From the NCBI RefSeq assembly GCF_034259325.1, contig NZ_JAXIVS010000009.1, positions 124,001-188,000 on the forward strand: a stretch of DNA of 64,000 nt. The letters run 5' to 3'. Shown here one piece after another: positions 48,207 through 55,457 of this stretch. The position numbers and the translations under genes are program-made. Position 1 is the stretch's first letter. Each line of letters starts with the position of its first letter. The notes under the pieces were generated by a model, which was not told the origin of the DNA, did not search any database, and worked only from the letters and a program-made list of their open reading frames with translations. The DNA is from Hyalangium ruber (GTDB taxonomy: Bacteria > Myxococcota > Myxococcia > Myxococcales > Myxococcaceae).

Positions 48207-48665
48207 CTAGTCCTTCTTGGTCAGGTCGGCGCGGATCTCGCCGTTCGGGTTCATGTTGGTGTGGATGTTGACGTACATCTTGCCGCCCTCGAAGTTCGTC
48301 ACGTCCGTGTCGGTCAGCTTCACGTCGCTGCACTTCGGGGTGACCGAGCCCTCGGCCTCGGCGCCGATGCTGCCGCTGGTGGCCGCGGGGACCTTCAGGT
48401 GGCAGAAGATCGGCCCGGTGCCGTCCGAACCCACGGGGCCGTGGATGTGGGCGCTGGCGGCGTTGCCGCTCAGGCCCGTGAAGTCACCATCGACATCCAG
48501 GCTCTCGCCGTCGACCTTGACGGTGACGCTGCCGCTGGCGCTGGTCGTGACCGCCGTGGGCTTCTGCGCGGCGCCGCTCAGCGTGCCGGTCAGCTCCGTG
48601 CCGCCACCACACGCCACCAGCGCCAACGTCGACACACATGCGATGAAAAGACGATTCGCCTTCAT
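48207..48665 (-). CDS. CHRD-domain lipoprotein
   Basis: The protein has 152 residues from an ATG at 48665. The signal ends in LALVACG with the lipidated Cys19. The mature part is a small CHRD-type (chordin-like) beta domain: LTGTLSGAAQKP, SASAHIHGP and NIHTNMNPNGEIRADL, with the paired HIHGP and IHT positions typical of the family. CHRD proteins are common in Cystobacterineae; function unknown, possibly metal or matrix binding. Confidence 0.85.
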   Translation of the reverse strand: MKANRLFIACVSTLALVACGGGTELTGTLSGAAQKPTAVTTSASGSVTVKVDGESLDVDGDFTGLSGNAASAHIHGPVGSDGTGPIFCHLKVPAATSGSIGAEAEGSVTPKCSDVKLTDTDVTNFEGGKMYVNIHTNMNPNGEIRADLTKKD

Positions 48666-48824: not shown

Positions 48825-49769
48825 TCATGGACCAAAGTCTGGCACTTGGATGCAGTCGCTAAGCCTTCCAATACCGAACAGTTGCCAACTGCCTTTGGCG
48901 TAGAGGATGCGGCCCTGCGCATCCCAGCACTCCTGGAAGCTGGCGCCCAGCAGGTCTCCCACGAGGATGGTGTACATCCCCACGCCGCCACTGCTCGGAG
49001 TCCACCGACTGGTGATCTCCACATCCTCCTTGGCGTTGCCTGGCACCGCGTCGGTGTTCTTCAGCAGGAATCGCATCTCGCCGAAGCCGCCCGTCTGCTC
49101 CCGGTAGGTGTAGCGGATCTCGGAGGAGGTGGTGGAGGGCGCGGCGAAGATCATCTCCACCCGGATGGGCTGTTGCCGGGTCTGGTAGCCGATGTCGAGC
49201 CGCCGCAGTCCGCGCAGCCCCTCGCCCACCTCGAGCCCCTTGGCCACGGCTTCCTCGATGAAGAGGTGCAGCTCGCCCTCGCCCTTGCGGATGCCAGCGT
49301 CCGCCTTGAAGGAGCCCTCCAGGAAGGACCACCACGTCTCATCGCCGGCCTTCGAGCGCTTGTATTGGAGGCGGTAGTCGAAGGAGTCCCCGTCGCGCTC
49401 CATCACGAAGCGTGCGTCGTGGCCCGGCCGCTTCGAGTCCGCGAAGGGGCCCCAGGTCCGGCGGGTCGGCTCGCGCGTGGTGGGCGGCGTGGTGCGGATG
49501 GCTTCGAGCAGGCTCAAAAGCCCGTCCAGCCCCGCGTTGAAGGTCCCCGAGGCCTCCTGGGTGCTCTTGTAGATATCGGAGGGGTCTCCCAGGGCCAGCC
49601 CATCCCGACGCCGCGCCAGCCCCTGGCCCGAGCTCTTGCCGCTGCCGGGAAGCTTGCTGGCCAGCTCCTCGCGCGTCGGCAGCGCGTTGAGGTACTCGAG
49701 GTCATCGTTGGAGAAGTTGCCGCCGCACGCGGCCAGGAGGCAGAGCAGGGCGGGCCCGAGGTGTCGCAT
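48825..49769 (-). CDS. Lipoprotein B of the sigma/caspase module
   Basis: The protein has 314 residues from an ATG at 49769 with AAGGAG seven bases before. LLAACGG gives Cys15. The pattern LPTREELASKLPG, GQGLARR, RTWGPFAD, SRWTPSSGG and a C-terminal CWDAQG parallels lipoprotein A at 52712-53701 (LPSKE, GQGL, WGPYSD, SRWT, CWD), so the two are paralogues. Beta-rich and probably periplasmic. It begins ten bases after the caspase-like gene, so the two are co-expressed. The disposition suggests the two lipoproteins act on the protease or sense its substrate. Confidence 0.82.
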   Translation of the reverse strand: MRHLGPALLCLLAACGGNFSNDDLEYLNALPTREELASKLPGSGKSSGQGLARRRDGLALGDPSDIYKSTQEASGTFNAGLDGLLSLLEAIRTTPPTTREPTRRTWGPFADSKRPGHDARFVMERDGDSFDYRLQYKRSKAGDETWWSFLEGSFKADAGIRKGEGELHLFIEEAVAKGLEVGEGLRGLRRLDIGYQTRQQPIRVEMIFAAPSTTSSEIRYTYREQTGGFGEMRFLLKNTDAVPGNAKEDVEITSRWTPSSGGVGMYTILVGDLLGASFQECWDAQGRILYAKGSWQLFGIGRLSDCIQVPDFGP

Positions 49770-49779
49770 CGCGCGCTCC

Positions 49780-51366
49780 TTAGAGTTCATACGTCACCAG
49801 CGCCGCCAGCTCCCAGTAGCCGAGGGAGCTCTGCGCATCGACGTTGTAGATGAGGTAGTGGACGCGGCCTCTCCCGGTGAGGTGCAGGCTGCGCAGAAGG
49901 CGATAGCGCAGCCCGGCCACCAGTCCGGGAGAGAACGACGCGTAGTACTGATCCGGGAAGGTGCCGCCGTCGAACTTGCGGCCCATATAAAGGTATGTGA
50001 GCCGCGCGCCCGCGAAGGGGCGCAGCTCGCCCAGGCGCCACTCGGTGGCCAGGGTGGTGCCCAGGTTCAGCACCGAGTAGCGGTAGCCAGCGCCCTCCAC
50101 GGTGTCCAGGTCCAGCCTCGCGGCGCGCCCGCCCAGCGTCACGTCGAAGCTCCACACCCAGTCCTCGCGGAAGTAGTCGTGGAGGTTCGCCTCCGCGCCC
50201 ACCAGCGGCACCGAGAGGAACAGCGAGCGGCGGATGGACGGATCGAAGAAGGACTGCATGCCGCCCGTCAGCCCCACCGTCCAGTACGAGCCACTCCCGC
50301 GAGCGCCCTTCACCGGGTCGTCCGAGAAGGGCGCGTCCCGCAGCCGTGCCTCCTCCAGCACCGTCTCCTGGCCGCGCCGCACCACCACCTCGCCGATGCG
50401 CAGCCGGTCTTCCATGCGACGCTTCACCCGGTAGGTGCCGGGCGCGAGCGCCACCCGCCGCTCCGTGTCCTGCACCTTGTCCAGCTCCGCCACCACCAGC
50501 CCCGCCGGATCCACGAAGTAGTAGGCGCCGGCGGGCGCGGCGCGCGGCACCACCAGCCCCTCCGAGGCGCTCAGGTCCGTGAGCACCAGGTCGCCGTTGC
50601 CCGCGAGGTCATAGCTGAACGTGGGGTGCTGGGGCCCCGCGCTGCTGGCCGCCGTGTCCGCCACCGTGCGGGCGTACGCGTGCGAATACGCCTCGAAGAG
50701 CGTCACCCGGCCGTCTCCGGAGCGGTCCGCGTCTCCCAGCAACCCGCTGGTCAGGTGGTGGGAGAAGTAGCTGCCGCCGATCGCGTCCGACTCCTGCGAG
50801 TCCTCGTCCGCCGAGCTGGAGGTGAGGATGACCATGCCGCGCGCGTCCCGGGCGGCCCCCGAGTCGATGGCGAAGGCGGGGGCGCGCCGGGCGCCCTTCG
50901 TTCGCGTGAGCGCGCCGGAGCGGCACGAGTCCAGGATGGCGATGCGGATGTCCGCGGGCGCATTGGCGAGCCGCTGCTTGAGCGCCTCGAAGGGCAGGCG
51001 CGTGTCCCCCAGCCGCAGCGCGCCATCCTTCGCGTGGCCCGAGTAGTAGATGAAGAGCGCGGTGCGCTCGCCCCGGGCCCGGGCCGCCTTCACCTGGGCC
51101 TCCATGCTGGCCAGCGCAGAGAGGACGTCCTGCGCCTCCTCGTTGAGCAGCAGCCGCGCGTCGGAGGGCGCCACCCCGCCCAGCCGCGTGAGCAGGCCGT
51201 GCATCTTGCTCGCGTCCTCACGGGCGTAGCGCAGCGGCCGTGTGTCCGCGCCTCCCTCATCGTTGCCGATCGCCAGGGCGAAGCGGCGCAGGGGCTCGGC
51301 CTGGGCTCCCGTGGTCAGCAGCAGCGCCAGGGTGAGCAGGCCGGTCTGTCGTCCCAGCCCCCTCAT
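49780..51366 (-). CDS. Exported caspase-like (C14) protease with C-terminal beta-barrel-like domain
   Basis: The protein has 528 residues. A signal peptide (LLTLALLLTTGAQA) precedes a caspase/metacaspase domain (about 26-265) with FALAIGNDEGG, FIYYSGHA containing His111, and ILDSCRSGAL containing Cys148, the complete catalytic dyad. A linking domain has PAGAYYFVD and VALAPGTYRVKRR. From about residue 355 the sequence is amphipathic beta (YWTVGLTGGMQSF, LFLSVPLVGAEANL, YRYSVLNLGTTLATEW, YASFSPGLVAGLRYRLL), ending LAALVTYEL, which looks like an outer-membrane barrel. A protease tethered to the outer membrane is inferred. ATGA overlap with the anti-sigma gene. Confidence 0.85.
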   Translation of the reverse strand: MRGLGRQTGLLTLALLLTTGAQAEPLRRFALAIGNDEGGADTRPLRYAREDASKMHGLLTRLGGVAPSDARLLLNEEAQDVLSALASMEAQVKAARARGERTALFIYYSGHAKDGALRLGDTRLPFEALKQRLANAPADIRIAILDSCRSGALTRTKGARRAPAFAIDSGAARDARGMVILTSSSADEDSQESDAIGGSYFSHHLTSGLLGDADRSGDGRVTLFEAYSHAYARTVADTAASSAGPQHPTFSYDLAGNGDLVLTDLSASEGLVVPRAAPAGAYYFVDPAGLVVAELDKVQDTERRVALAPGTYRVKRRMEDRLRIGEVVVRRGQETVLEEARLRDAPFSDDPVKGARGSGSYWTVGLTGGMQSFFDPSIRRSLFLSVPLVGAEANLHDYFREDWVWSFDVTLGGRAARLDLDTVEGAGYRYSVLNLGTTLATEWRLGELRPFAGARLTYLYMGRKFDGGTFPDQYYASFSPGLVAGLRYRLLRSLHLTGRGRVHYLIYNVDAQSSLGYWELAALVTYEL

Positions 51367-52148
51367 AGCTTGAGCAGCACCCAGTGGGTCTGGTCTCCGT
51401 CCACCTCCAGCGGGTCCATCGTCGCCACGGAATTCCCACTCGCCGCGAACGACCAGCGTGCGGCCTCGCTGGCTTGCGCCACCGTCACCGGCGTGTCGCT
51501 CAACAGCACCACCACGCGCTCAGCGCCCAAACCGGTGAACTCGAGGCTGCCCGGTAGCCAGTGCGGTCCCGCACCGGGTTCCACCGGGAGGCTCTGTCCG
51601 GTCTCGGGGTAGAGCGGGGTCACCTCGCCGGACGCGTCCACCGACAGGGCCAGCACGTACTTGCGCTCAGCGGGCGTGTAGCCCAGCCGTACGCGCTCTC
51701 CGCGATTCAGAGTCTCGGGAGCATCGACCTGGGCCACCCGCTGAGGGCCCTCGCCACCTCCGATGCGCAGCTCCGCCGTCGCGCCGCCCTTCGTCCGCAC
51801 TCCAGGCACCGTCCCCGAGTCGAGCAGCGGACGCGCCGCCACCACCACCAGCACCGCGGCCGCGATAGCGACCACCGGCCCCGCCCAGCGCACTACGGCC
51901 GCGCGAGATGATTTCTGCTGCTTTTCGGCCTTCTCCACCGCCCGGTTCACCCCCGCCTCGAAGCGTTCGAAGGGAATGTCCGCCTCGAACTGGCGCTGGG
52001 CTCCTTCCGCGTCGCGGAGCACCGCGCCGCACTGCTCGCATTCGGCCGCGTGGGTCCGGGCTCGGGTCGCCTCGGCGGTGGAGAGCTCGCCCGCGTGCAG
52101 GCGGCGCAGTGTCCACTCCGAGGGGTGTTCTGGCTGCTGCGTGCTCAT
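51363..52148 (-). CDS. Anti-sigma factor (zf-HC2) with DUF4384-like periplasmic domain
   Basis: The protein has 261 residues from an ATG at 52148. The zinc-binding anti-sigma motif H-x3-C-x2-C is at His33, Cys37 and Cys40 (HAAECEQC). One membrane helix lies at about 88-106. The periplasmic part contains GERVRLGYTPAERKYVLALS and LSVDASGEVTPLYPETGQS, which resembles DUF4384-type domains that are often joined to caspase-like proteases. It overlaps the sigma gene by ATGA, the typical ECF pair arrangement, and the caspase gene by ATGA on the other side. It presumably holds the sigma factor until a periplasmic cue. Confidence 0.87.
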   Translation of the reverse strand: MSTQQPEHPSEWTLRRLHAGELSTAEATRARTHAAECEQCGAVLRDAEGAQRQFEADIPFERFEAGVNRAVEKAEKQQKSSRAAVVRWAGPVVAIAAAVLVVVAARPLLDSGTVPGVRTKGGATAELRIGGGEGPQRVAQVDAPETLNRGERVRLGYTPAERKYVLALSVDASGEVTPLYPETGQSLPVEPGAGPHWLPGSLEFTGLGAERVVVLLSDTPVTVAQASEAARWSFAASGNSVATMDPLEVDGDQTHWVLLKL

Positions 52149-52684
52149 CGGACCCTCAACTCTTCTCCACCCAACTCGGCGAACTGATCCAGCCGCTTGC
52201 GCACCGTGGGCACCGAGCGCCCCAGCACCGCGGCCACCTCCTCCAGCGTCATTCCGTCCACGTGGTAGTGGATGACCGCGGCCTGCGTCTCCACGTCCAC
52301 CTTGGACAACAGCTTGCGCACCAGGTCTCGCGTCTCCATCACCTGCGGGCCGCCGTGGCCCTCGGAGCGCGCCGCCTCGTCCCGCTCGAACCAGGAGCGC
52401 CAGCCGGCCCGCTCCGCGCGCAGTTGGTTGAGGCAGTGGTGCGTGGCGATCTTCATCAGCCACGTCAGCGGCGAGGCGTCGGCCCGGAAGTCGCTCATGT
52501 GGGTGAACGCCCGGGCGAACACATCCTGCATTGCATCCTCGGCCTTTGCCGGATCCTTCAACAGGTAGCGGCAGCGCCCCAGCACGCTGCCGCCGTACTT
52601 CGTATACAGCTCGCGCAGCACCGCCCGCCGGTCCTCGGTCGGACCGCCCTGGATGACCCGCAGGACCGGCTGGCTGGTTCCCAT
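52145..52684 (-). CDS. ECF-type sigma factor
   Basis: The protein has 179 residues. Sigma region 2 is at about 28-95 (YGGSVLGRCRYLLKDPAKAED, DVFARAFTHM, LTWLMKIATHHCLNQLR); region 4 has VETQAAVIHYHVDGMTLEEVA and a helix-turn-helix VAAVLGRSVPTVRKRLDQF. The lack of region 1 and 3 marks it as group 4. It is 27 bases downstream of lipoprotein A. I could not identify its own promoter consensus with confidence. Confidence 0.92.
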   Translation of the reverse strand: MGTSQPVLRVIQGGPTEDRRAVLRELYTKYGGSVLGRCRYLLKDPAKAEDAMQDVFARAFTHMSDFRADASPLTWLMKIATHHCLNQLRAERAGWRSWFERDEAARSEGHGGPQVMETRDLVRKLLSKVDVETQAAVIHYHVDGMTLEEVAAVLGRSVPTVRKRLDQFAELGGEELRVR

Positions 52685-52711
52685 GGTGCGCGCGGCAGTC
52701 TAGTGCGCGGA

Positions 52712-53701
52712 CTACAGCAAGGAATAGACGGGGGTGGAGAAGCTGCCGCACGCGTCCACGGTGCCGTAGCCCAGGGTGATGCCGAGGTGCAGCGTCAGGT
52801 ACTGGCTGTTGAAGTTCGAGTCCCAGCAGTCGCTGACGGTGCCCGCGTTGGAGCCCATGTCTCCGCCGGTCACCTTCACGTCCGAGCGGCCCATGCCGTT
52901 CTGCGTCCAGCGGCTCTTGACGGTGATGTGCTCGATGCCTGGGCGGTTGGTCCCCGGCTTGTCCAGGTTCTTGTCCAGGGCGAAGTCGAACTCACCACCG
53001 GCGCCCGGCGTCTCCTTGTAGCGGTAGTCGGCGTTCACGCGAGTGCCCGGCCGCTCGTCATCCTTCACGTTTCGGAAGTCGGCCTCGACTGTCGCCACCG
53101 TCGCGGCGCTCTCCCGCGTGTAGCGGATGGTCGCCACGCCAAGGTCCTTGCCATGCTCGGGCAGCGTCTGCTCCGCGTCCCAGTCGATCTTCAAGGAGCC
53201 GGAGCCGTAGTTGCGCAGCCGGTTGCCCTGCGCGTCCAGGGCGATCGCGTGCGTGCCGGAGAGGATGACCTTGAAGGCCGAGTCGTCCGCCTCCTTGGCC
53301 TTGCCCGCCAGCTCGTAGGTGTACTCATGCTCGGCCTTCTGCGTGACGGTGAGCTTCCAGGCGTTGCGCTTCAGCGCATCCGAGTACGGGCCCCACACGG
53401 CGACCTCCCCGGTGATCGAGGTGGGCGGGTACTCGGTGATCTCCTCGATGAGGGTGAGCACCGCCGCCGTGCCGCCGTTGACCACCTCCGTGGCTCCGCG
53501 CGTCAGGGCGTAATACTCGCTCGTGTCGCCCTGGCCGAAGGCGCTCACCTCGCCGCTCTTCAGCCCCTGGCCTCGGGTGCCACCCGGTGACTTCAACTCC
53601 ACCGTCTCCTTCGAGGGCAGGCCGTCGCGGAACGCGGTGTCCTCGACCTGGCCACAGCCGACGAACAGCAGGGAGGCGCACAGCAAGCTCTTGCGGAACA
53701 T
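52712..53701 (-). CDS. Lipoprotein A of the sigma/caspase module
   Basis: The protein has 329 residues. It has a lipoprotein-type N-terminus (LLFVGCG, Cys16) and AAGGAAG before the ATG. It contains LPSKETVELKSPGG, GQGLKSG, AVWGPYSDAL, a run of beta strands with many Tyr and Thr, VKSRWTQNG and SDCWDSN near the end. It is a paralogue of lipoprotein B at 48825-49769. It leads the operon that continues with the sigma, anti-sigma and caspase-like genes. A GC-rich hairpin (GCGGCCC/GGGCCGC, about 53720-53740) lies in its 5' leader. Confidence 0.82.
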   Translation of the reverse strand: MFRKSLLCASLLFVGCGQVEDTAFRDGLPSKETVELKSPGGTRGQGLKSGEVSAFGQGDTSEYYALTRGATEVVNGGTAAVLTLIEEITEYPPTSITGEVAVWGPYSDALKRNAWKLTVTQKAEHEYTYELAGKAKEADDSAFKVILSGTHAIALDAQGNRLRNYGSGSLKIDWDAEQTLPEHGKDLGVATIRYTRESAATVATVEADFRNVKDDERPGTRVNADYRYKETPGAGGEFDFALDKNLDKPGTNRPGIEHITVKSRWTQNGMGRSDVKVTGGDMGSNAGTVSDCWDSNFNSQYLTLHLGITLGYGTVDACGSFSTPVYSLL

Positions 53702-53908
53702 GGGTTCTTCCTTTCAGGGGCGGCCCTCACGGGGCCGCGTCGCGTGTGTTCGCCTCCATGGACACAGCCGCCCCGAAAAAGAGAAAAGCCTCTTTTCCAA
53801 GTCAGAAAAGGCCAGCAAAGACGCGGGGTTGTCGCTCGCCTGGCTGCTCAGCGGGCGATCTTGTCCCGGGGTACGACATGGAATTTCCCCCGTCCCTAGC
53901 TTCACCCC

Positions 53909-54769
53909 ATGGAAAAGCGACACCCGAACCATCCCGGGGAGCTGGGAGTCGACGCCTCGCTGGCCGAGCGCGACCGGGCTCCTGATGAGATCAACGCGCG
54001 GGCCCGTGCCGTGGGGCTGCTGCTCGACGCCGGAGTGCCCTTCGTCGTCGGCGGCGCCTATGCCTATGCCACCTATACGGGCATCTACCGCGACACGAAG
54101 GACCTGGACCTGTTCCCCCGAAAACGGGACGCGGGTCGGGCGCTCGAGGTGCTGGAGCTGGATGGGTGGCGCACCGAGCGCACCGATGAGGTGTGGCTCT
54201 ACAAGGCCTTCAAGGGGGAGTACTTCGTCGACTTCATCTTCTCGTCCGGCAACGGCGTGGCGGTGGTGGACGACGAGTGGTTCGAGCACGCGAAGACGGC
54301 CACCGTGTTCGGCCATCGGTGCCTGGTGGCGCCCGCCGAGGAGATCATCTGGTCCAAGTCCTTCGTCAACGAGCGCGAGCGCTATGATGGGGCGGACGTG
54401 AACCACCTGATCCTCAAGGCCGGTCGGCAGATGGACTGGGAGCGGCTGATGCGTCGCTTCGACCGGTACTGGGAGGTGCTCTTCAGCCACCTGATGATGT
54501 TCCGGTTCGCCTACCCGTCCGAGCGCGACATCATCCCCGACTGGGTGATGGCGGAGATGATGTCGCGCACGCTGGACTCGGTGCGCGAGGGCAACTGGGA
54601 GGAGAACTTCTGCCGCGGCAATCTGATCTCGCGGGTGAACTACCACGTGGACATCCACCACTGGGGTTTCCGCGATGGCCGGGCCTGGGACGAGAACGAT
54701 CGAAAGAATGGAGGAGGCGAGCGTGGCGCGCGACCCGAGCTCGAAGATACGGCTAGCAGCGGTCGGTGA
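53909..54769 (+). CDS. Nucleotidyltransferase-fold protein
   Basis: The protein has 286 residues. GG at 48-49 (FVVGGAYAYATYT) and D-x-D at 65-67 (KDLDLF) form the active-site signature of the Pol-beta-like nucleotidyltransferase superfamily (MenT/AbiEii-like or MNT type). The C-terminal region is helical with EIIWSKSFVNERERYDGADV, then a long tail. Overlap of 47 bases with the metallophosphoesterase gene suggests that they work together, for example in adding and removing a nucleotide. Substrate unknown. Confidence 0.82.
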   Translation: MEKRHPNHPGELGVDASLAERDRAPDEINARARAVGLLLDAGVPFVVGGAYAYATYTGIYRDTKDLDLFPRKRDAGRALEVLELDGWRTERTDEVWLYKAFKGEYFVDFIFSSGNGVAVVDDEWFEHAKTATVFGHRCLVAPAEEIIWSKSFVNERERYDGADVNHLILKAGRQMDWERLMRRFDRYWEVLFSHLMMFRFAYPSERDIIPDWVMAEMMSRTLDSVREGNWEENFCRGNLISRVNYHVDIHHWGFRDGRAWDENDRKNGGGERGARPELEDTASSGR

Positions 54770-55457
54770 TCTTCACTGTCGAGACGACCAGCACGGCCGG
54801 TTCCGGCAGCTCGTCAAACAGGTCAACGCCTCAGCCGATGTGCTGGTGCTGTGCGGAGACCTGACGGACCGGGGGATGGCCGAAGAGGGCAAGGTGCTGG
54901 CCGAGGAGCTGTCGGCCCTGCGAGTGCCGTGTGCCGCGGTGCTGGGCAATCACGACTACGAGCATGGGCAGGTGAAGGAGATCTGCGGTGAGCTGTCCAA
55001 GGTGGGCATCCACATCCTGGACGGAGATCACTTCATCTTCGAGAAGGTGCTCGGCATCGCCGGGGTGAAGGGCTTCGGCGGCGGCTTCGGCAACGCCACG
55101 TTGCAGGCGTTCGGCGAGGGACAGACCAAGTCCTTCGTGCAGGAGGCGGTGACCGAATCGCTCAAGCTGGAGGCGGCCCTGAGCCACCTCGACACGCCCA
55201 AGCGGGTGGTCATCATGCACTACTCGCCCATTCCGGAGACGCTGGAGGGGGAGAACATCGAGATCCGCCCCTTCCTGGGCACCAGCCGCCTGGCCATGCC
55301 CATCGACCACTACAAGGCGGAGGCGGTGTTCCACGGGCACGCGCACCACGGCACGCGCGAGGGCAAGACGCGGGGCGGAATCCCCGTCTACAACGTGGCG
55401 ATGCCGCTGATGGCCAAGCACACCCCGGATCAGCGCTTCGCGATCCTGGAGCTCTGA
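54723..55457 (+). CDS. Metallophosphoesterase
   Basis: The protein has 244 residues from a GTG at 54723 with GGAGGAGG five bases before; an ATG at 54708 is a possible alternative. Dimetal-binding motifs are GDLH (15-18), GDLTD (45-49), GNHDYE (75-80), HYSPIPE and GHAHHG. The order matches calcineurin-like phosphoesterases. Cytoplasmic. It overlaps the nucleotidyltransferase gene and ends just before a strong bidirectional hairpin. Confidence 0.92.
   Translation: MARDPSSKIRLAAVGDLHCRDDQHGRFRQLVKQVNASADVLVLCGDLTDRGMAEEGKVLAEELSALRVPCAAVLGNHDYEHGQVKEICGELSKVGIHILDGDHFIFEKVLGIAGVKGFGGGFGNATLQAFGEGQTKSFVQEAVTESLKLEAALSHLDTPKRVVIMHYSPIPETLEGENIEIRPFLGTSRLAMPIDHYKAEAVFHGHAHHGTREGKTRGGIPVYNVAMPLMAKHTPDQRFAILEL

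Follow-up and report, generated by a model that had tools for sequence, protein, structure and literature searches.

What would an exported caspase homolog do when it is encoded in one operon with a sigma factor and its membrane-bound inhibitor? The role of bacterial caspase homologs is largely open and is usually framed as cell death. We examined this question in a 64,000-nt stretch of the Hyalangium ruber genome (contig NZ_JAXIVS010000009.1; "the window", whose positions are used as coordinates throughout), where five minus-strand genes encode a lipoprotein (LipoA), an extracytoplasmic function (ECF) sigma factor, an anti-sigma factor, an exported caspase and a second lipoprotein (LipoB). 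The five open reading frames and the gaps of 27, -4, -4 and 10 bp between them agree with a first-pass annotation of this DNA. On balance we lean, if only just, towards reading the locus as a self-amplifying envelope-signaling operon, in which the caspase would act as the site-1 protease of its own anti-sigma in a positive feedback loop.

A conserved module with its own predicted promoter

Judged by its conservation, the five-gene set is a real module. Neighborhoods read in 26 other Myxococcota genomes (families f1, f2, f3, f5, f7 and f27, including Archangium lansinium and A. violaceum) have the order LipoA-sigma-anti-sigma-caspase-LipoB; in two of them a contig end cuts one lipoprotein, and at one locus (L048) 839 bp separate the anti-sigma and caspase genes. 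Because this order recurs across the phylum, the arrangement is not due to chance, and the search for recurrent gene order that the first-pass annotation had proposed came out strongly in favor of a module. In family f11 the order is sigma-anti-sigma-caspase-LipoB-LipoA, with LipoA moved to the other end yet retained, and five copies have no adjoining LipoA. Full-length orthologs of the caspase are found in most genomes of the H. ruber family and in some beyond it, and the module itself occurs across Myxococcota, small genomes included.

A motif of the form TTTC-N16-18-GTGTC is common to the orthologs upstream of LipoA, and it precedes the sigma gene where LipoA is missing or lies elsewhere. 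A count limited to 300 bp from the first gene found the motif in 35 of 36 module operons, compared to 0.07 expected from shuffles, and in 12 of 13 operons outside the motif-defining set. The motif was found at three of six separate LipoA genes and at none of 11 paralogous sigma-caspase operons. In its strict form the motif occurs at 13 sites across 24 genomes (control, 4), and nine of these sites are at module operons. A loose search of the H. ruber genome gave 25 sites versus 5 in the control, many within genes, and no convincing further regulon member. As the motif is nearly confined to the module, the sigma factor is probably autoregulated with a very narrow regulon, and its chief products are probably the caspase and the lipoproteins. 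The conserved promoter also supports the operon being one transcript under its own sigma. In one genome (G024), the strict motif lies 40 and 18 bp before the Ser/Thr-rich lipoprotein-like reading frames L206 and L208, which are possible extra regulon members.

A caspase of predicted basic specificity paired with a class I anti-sigma

The sigma factor is a short protein with both regions 2 and 4 (Pfam Sigma70_r2 5e-15, r4_2 6e-9), and the anti-sigma combines an HxxxCxxC motif with a single transmembrane segment, as in class I (ZAS) pairs. These two features and a periplasmic DUF4384-like region are conserved in the anti-sigma orthologs. The Pfam matches of the anti-sigma are weak and below cut-off (zf-HC2 0.026, 15 bits against a cut-off of 22; DUF4384 1.3e-3). 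DUF4384 serves as an accessory domain in cyanobacterial orthocaspases, and in 40 genomes 56 of 68 DUF4384 hits are directly followed by a same-strand caspase.

The caspase consists of a Sec-type signal peptide, a C14 domain (Pfam Peptidase_C14 1e-11), an all-beta stretch and a C-terminal region of 174 residues. It has the His-Cys dyad of Peptidase C14 enzymes and orthocaspases in a caspase fold: the caspase half of the structure model matches caspases and metacaspases, and sequence searches of the PDB returned no match. D51 and D146 make up a predicted acidic S1 pocket for a basic P1 residue, matching, by sequence position rather than by structure, the pocket positions of TbMC2 that give metacaspases and orthocaspases their basic P1 preference (PMC6426788). 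H111, C148, D51 and D146 are invariant in 25/25 orthologs. All 31 of the module caspases that were scanned contain an EF-hand loop (canonical in 29, near-canonical in the other two). Metacaspases are Ca2+-dependent (PMC8283722), and the window caspase probably is as well, through this loop.

Matching motifs at proposed cleavage sites in the caspase and the anti-sigma

The same tetrapeptide, R-T-K-G, occurs in the anti-sigma beyond the inner membrane and in the caspase after the catalytic Cys. In the anti-sigma (context PGV-RTKG-G) it sits eight residues beyond the transmembrane segment, just outside the inner membrane, and in the caspase it lies nine residues past the catalytic Cys (C148RSGALT-RTKG), with K157 and G158 invariant in 25 orthologs. 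Related caspases can be sorted into three types: those with Lys, like the window caspase (type I), those with Arg (type II) and those with AxC in place of DxC (type III). In 94 sigma/anti-sigma/caspase triples of types I and II, for which anti-sigma motifs were counted as present or absent, position nine after the catalytic Cys was always basic, Lys in 53 and Arg in 41, and inspection by eye of a relaxed caspase set gave the same reading. Of the 53 anti-sigmas that accompany Lys caspases, 52 have K-G beyond the transmembrane segment and the remaining one has K-S, whereas those paired with Arg caspases have K-G in 5/41 and R-G or R-S in 39/41, typically as TARGG or QARS. K-G was also present in all nine type III anti-sigmas, compared to one of 14 control anti-sigmas from the H. 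ruber genome, none of which has RxKG. On a tree of 65 caspases the Lys/Arg labels need 2 to 3 changes, and one Lys caspase with an REKG anti-sigma (L291) lies inside the Arg clade (87/80 support), a concordant switch.

The first-pass annotation had described the caspase and lipoproteins as the output or the sensor of the pathway, which can now be sharpened: the promoter suggests that they are pathway products, and the R-x-K-G match suggests that the caspase also triggers the pathway. In the H. ruber genome R-x-K-G had seemed unique to caspase-linked anti-sigmas; this was downgraded by a wider set, in which K-G also occurs without a nearby caspase and some caspase-linked anti-sigmas lack the Arg.

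The H. ruber genome encodes nine homologs of the caspase, most within sigma/anti-sigma/caspase sets. Three such systems of different types lie within ~90 kb of a single contig (G000:C9:86534, 118802 and 173783, the last being window 49783-51366), and in G008, G016, G007 and G022 a distance of 37-67 kb separates type I from type III copies. The H. ruber genome also has an orphan caspase with K-G after the Cys (L067, G000:C16:121992) and a sigma/DUF4384 anti-sigma pair, likewise orphan (L112, G000:C2:910980), in which V-K-G follows the transmembrane segment; the two are possibly partners in trans.

Predicted envelope components of the operon

The C-terminal 174 residues of the caspase show in-out strand alternation (z 4.1 over shuffles, 25 orthologs) that the other domains do not have, and several paralogous caspases end in a GxGYRF-like aromatic-rich tail, like outer-membrane barrels. 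The structure model is poor (predicted local distance difference test score, pLDDT, 45; about 25 in the barrel), so the strand alternation is what the barrel assignment stands on. The "caspase-barrel" of the first-pass annotation accordingly gains support from the alternation but none from the model, which failed in that part. The caspase is probably tethered to the outer membrane by this predicted barrel.

LipoA and LipoB are paralogs, as the first-pass annotation had proposed (26% identity, E 2e-14), and both have lipoboxes and conserved C-terminal cysteines. Neither matches a Pfam family, and the all-beta model of LipoB (pLDDT 64) had no credible match in the PDB. Each forms a single clade (100/99 support) with one-to-one correspondence across families, and the duplication is therefore older than these families. 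A LipoB-family profile has matches in 135 of 195 Myxococcota genomes, often as pairs ~4 kb apart. An alternative LipoB start (ATG at 49790) would overlap the caspase gene; AGGAG is found just 5' of 49769. Together, the predicted barrel and the lipoproteins suggest the outer membrane as the sensed structure.

Table 1. Features of the operon in window coordinates.
Feature	Position	Strand	Basis
Predicted ECF-type operon promoter TTTCTCTTTTTCGGGGCGGCTGTGTCC (TTTC-N17-GTGTCC), 58 bp 5' of LipoA start	53760..53786	-	
LipoA, exported lipoprotein, 329 aa, novel family, conserved C-terminal CWD and Cys	52712..53701	-	
ECF sigma factor, 179 aa, regions 2 and 4	52145..52684	-	Pfam
Anti-sigma, 261 aa: cytoplasmic HxxxCxxC domain, one transmembrane segment, periplasmic DUF4384-like domain	51363..52148	-	
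Anti-sigma zinc-binding motif HAAECEQC, residues 33-40	52029..52052	-	
Anti-sigma transmembrane segment, residues 91-109	51822..51878	-	Hydropathy
Anti-sigma juxtamembrane R118-T-K120-G121, proposed caspase site-1 cut after K120	51786..51797	-	
Exported caspase (Peptidase_C14), all-beta linker and C-terminal barrel-like domain, 528 aa	49780..51366	-	
Caspase catalytic His111 (SGHA)	51031..51042	-	25/25 orthologs
Caspase D146-S-C148, catalytic Cys and one acidic S1-pocket residue	50923..50931	-	25/25 orthologs
Caspase R155-T-K157-G158, proposed self-processing site	50893..50904	-	
Caspase EF-hand loop DRSGDGRVTLFE, residues 214-225, predicted Ca2+ site	50692..50727	-	
Caspase residues 355-528, predicted outer-membrane beta-barrel	49783..50304	-	Strand alternation
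LipoB, exported lipoprotein, 314 aa, LipoA paralog	48825..49769	-	

The operon is followed on the same strand by a CHRD-domain protein with a lipobox-like signal (48207-48665; Pfam 5e-20). A nucleotidyltransferase-like gene and a metallophosphoesterase gene are divergent from it (53909-55457, plus strand) and are kept there in close relatives only.

A proposed circuit and its alternatives

In the self-amplifying circuit that we favor, the ECF sigma would be held at the inner membrane by the anti-sigma, and the exported caspase would be active in the periplasm alongside LipoA and LipoB. A signal, most simply a disturbance of the outer membrane or the failed arrival there of the barrel or the lipoproteins, would free or activate the caspase, which would process itself after K157 and initiate cleavage of the anti-sigma with a cut after K120. 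Site-2 and cytoplasmic proteases of the housekeeping kind would then free the sigma to transcribe the whole operon from TTTC-N17-GTGTCC, yielding more caspase and lipoproteins. A broader version, which we hold tentatively and at somewhat less than an even chance, is that caspase-family proteases serve as site-1 proteases of ECF anti-sigmas in at least three parallel Myxococcota circuits, with the cut residue (Lys/Arg before Gly/Ser) having co-evolved with the caspase. The five-gene form would differ by its barrel fusion, through which failed outer-membrane assembly would deliver the protease to its target.

Several observations weigh against cleavage of the anti-sigma by the caspase. The Lys/Arg match comes mainly from two or three deep clades, and its Fisher p of 2e-19 ignores relatedness; with so few independent switches, the match is good but not decisive evidence for the anti-sigma as substrate. 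One triple (L234) is discordant, and R[GS] is frequent in control anti-sigmas (6/14). K-G is also present in two DUF4384 anti-sigmas (L082, L143) for which no neighboring caspase was found, and in a third (L120) with a caspase only in reversed order, and K-G may therefore be structural. The sigma-unlinked caspases L067 and L072 have K/R-G near the Cys too. G007 has a second module copy (L046:5145-7590) with promoter, sigma and caspase intact; its 99-aa anti-sigma has lost the transmembrane segment, the DUF4384 part and the R-x-K-G site in frame. G015 (L061) retains the caspase and LipoB, but neither sigma and anti-sigma nor LipoA lies close by, whereas sigma and anti-sigma are retained in G097, a genome from the same genus. 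Finally, a caspase tethered to the outer membrane may fail to reach a site beside the inner membrane, a problem that delivery of unassembled protease to the inner membrane would solve.

Some of these points fit a model in which another signal and another site-1 protease release the sigma, with the caspase and lipoproteins as mere outputs acting on envelope or foreign proteins and R-x-K-G incidental. The promoter places the caspase and lipoproteins under the sigma, some relocated LipoA genes have their own promoter copy, and the caspase and LipoB of G015 persist without a sigma, all in favor of such a model; we still consider it rather unlikely, as it leaves both the Lys/Arg match and the DUF4384-caspase linkage unexplained. 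That linkage, along with DUF4384 fusions and the K-G of L082 and L143, would instead suit an arrangement in which DUF4384 holds the caspase, or the K/R-G loop of the caspase binds in trans, so that release alters the anti-sigma conformation without a cut and the membrane-side K-G is a structural element of DUF4384. The swap from Lys to Arg in concert with caspase type and the invariance of the catalytic dyad argue against this, and we regard it as improbable.

Least probable, in our view, is a programmed-death operon whose sigma induces the caspase mainly for developmental lysis, as has been suggested in general terms for M. xanthus metacaspases (PMC3501461). Myxobacteria do lyse during development. 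It is at odds with the spread of the module across Myxococcota, down to small genomes, with the export of the caspase and its lack of a death-adaptor domain in Pfam, and with a weak match only to a library of defense systems. The self-amplifying circuit points to a specific substrate and bond and to a reporter promoter, and the operon is conserved across a phylum to which the tractable genus Myxococcus belongs.

Relation to known systems

Protease-controlled ECF sigmas are classic. The proposed circuit resembles DegS/RseP-RseA-sigmaE in its periplasmic site-1 cut of a single-pass anti-sigma, but DegS is a PDZ serine protease, whereas here the protease would be a caspase with a possible barrel, encoded with and probably induced by its sigma. 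Pfam found no PDZ serine site-1 protease in the operon, where Peptidase_C14 is the sole protease domain, and no TonB-dependent receptor domain, as in FecI/FecR-type signaling, among nine proteins scanned. EACC1/EACC2 caspase conflict systems (PMC8195603) likewise have a caspase domain, and EACC2 systems adjoin an ECF sigma; the window caspase scored 67.4 bits against NCBIfam caspase_w_EACC1, below the cut-off of 140, and no EACC or effector domain was found.

The closest precedent is a set of sigma-70/metacaspase operons noted in Myxococcus, Anaeromyxobacter, Haliangium, Sorangium, Ralstonia and Fibrobacter (Asplund-Samuelsson 2012, PMC3501461). As in the window, these join a sigma and a caspase homolog in one operon in Myxococcus and its relatives, and the module very likely belongs to this group. 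The interpretation in the first-pass annotation thus stands in part: the operon is a module, but the operon type is not wholly undescribed. In its available text, that paper mentions neither a lipoprotein pair nor a barrel or DUF4384 anti-sigma, and it gives no promoter, motif match or mechanism. In the literature searched, no text joined "orthocaspase" and "sigma factor", none reported the lipoproteins, the promoter or the motif match, and the titles and abstract openings described no caspase-like site-1 cleavage of an anti-sigma.

The proposal resembles in logic the type III-E CRISPR Craspase (Csx29 protease, Csx30 inhibitor, CASP-sigma; PMC10028731), where the inhibitor of an ECF sigma is the target of a caspase-like (CHAT) protease. 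No CRISPR effector or protein was found among those scanned in the window; CRISPR arrays were not searched for. Craspase is cytoplasmic, RNA-activated and CRISPR-associated, whereas the window system has an exported caspase and a membrane-bound ZAS anti-sigma. If the proposal is correct, caspases would have a place in ordinary gene regulation across the envelope, with Craspase as an analogous, unrelated route beside it.

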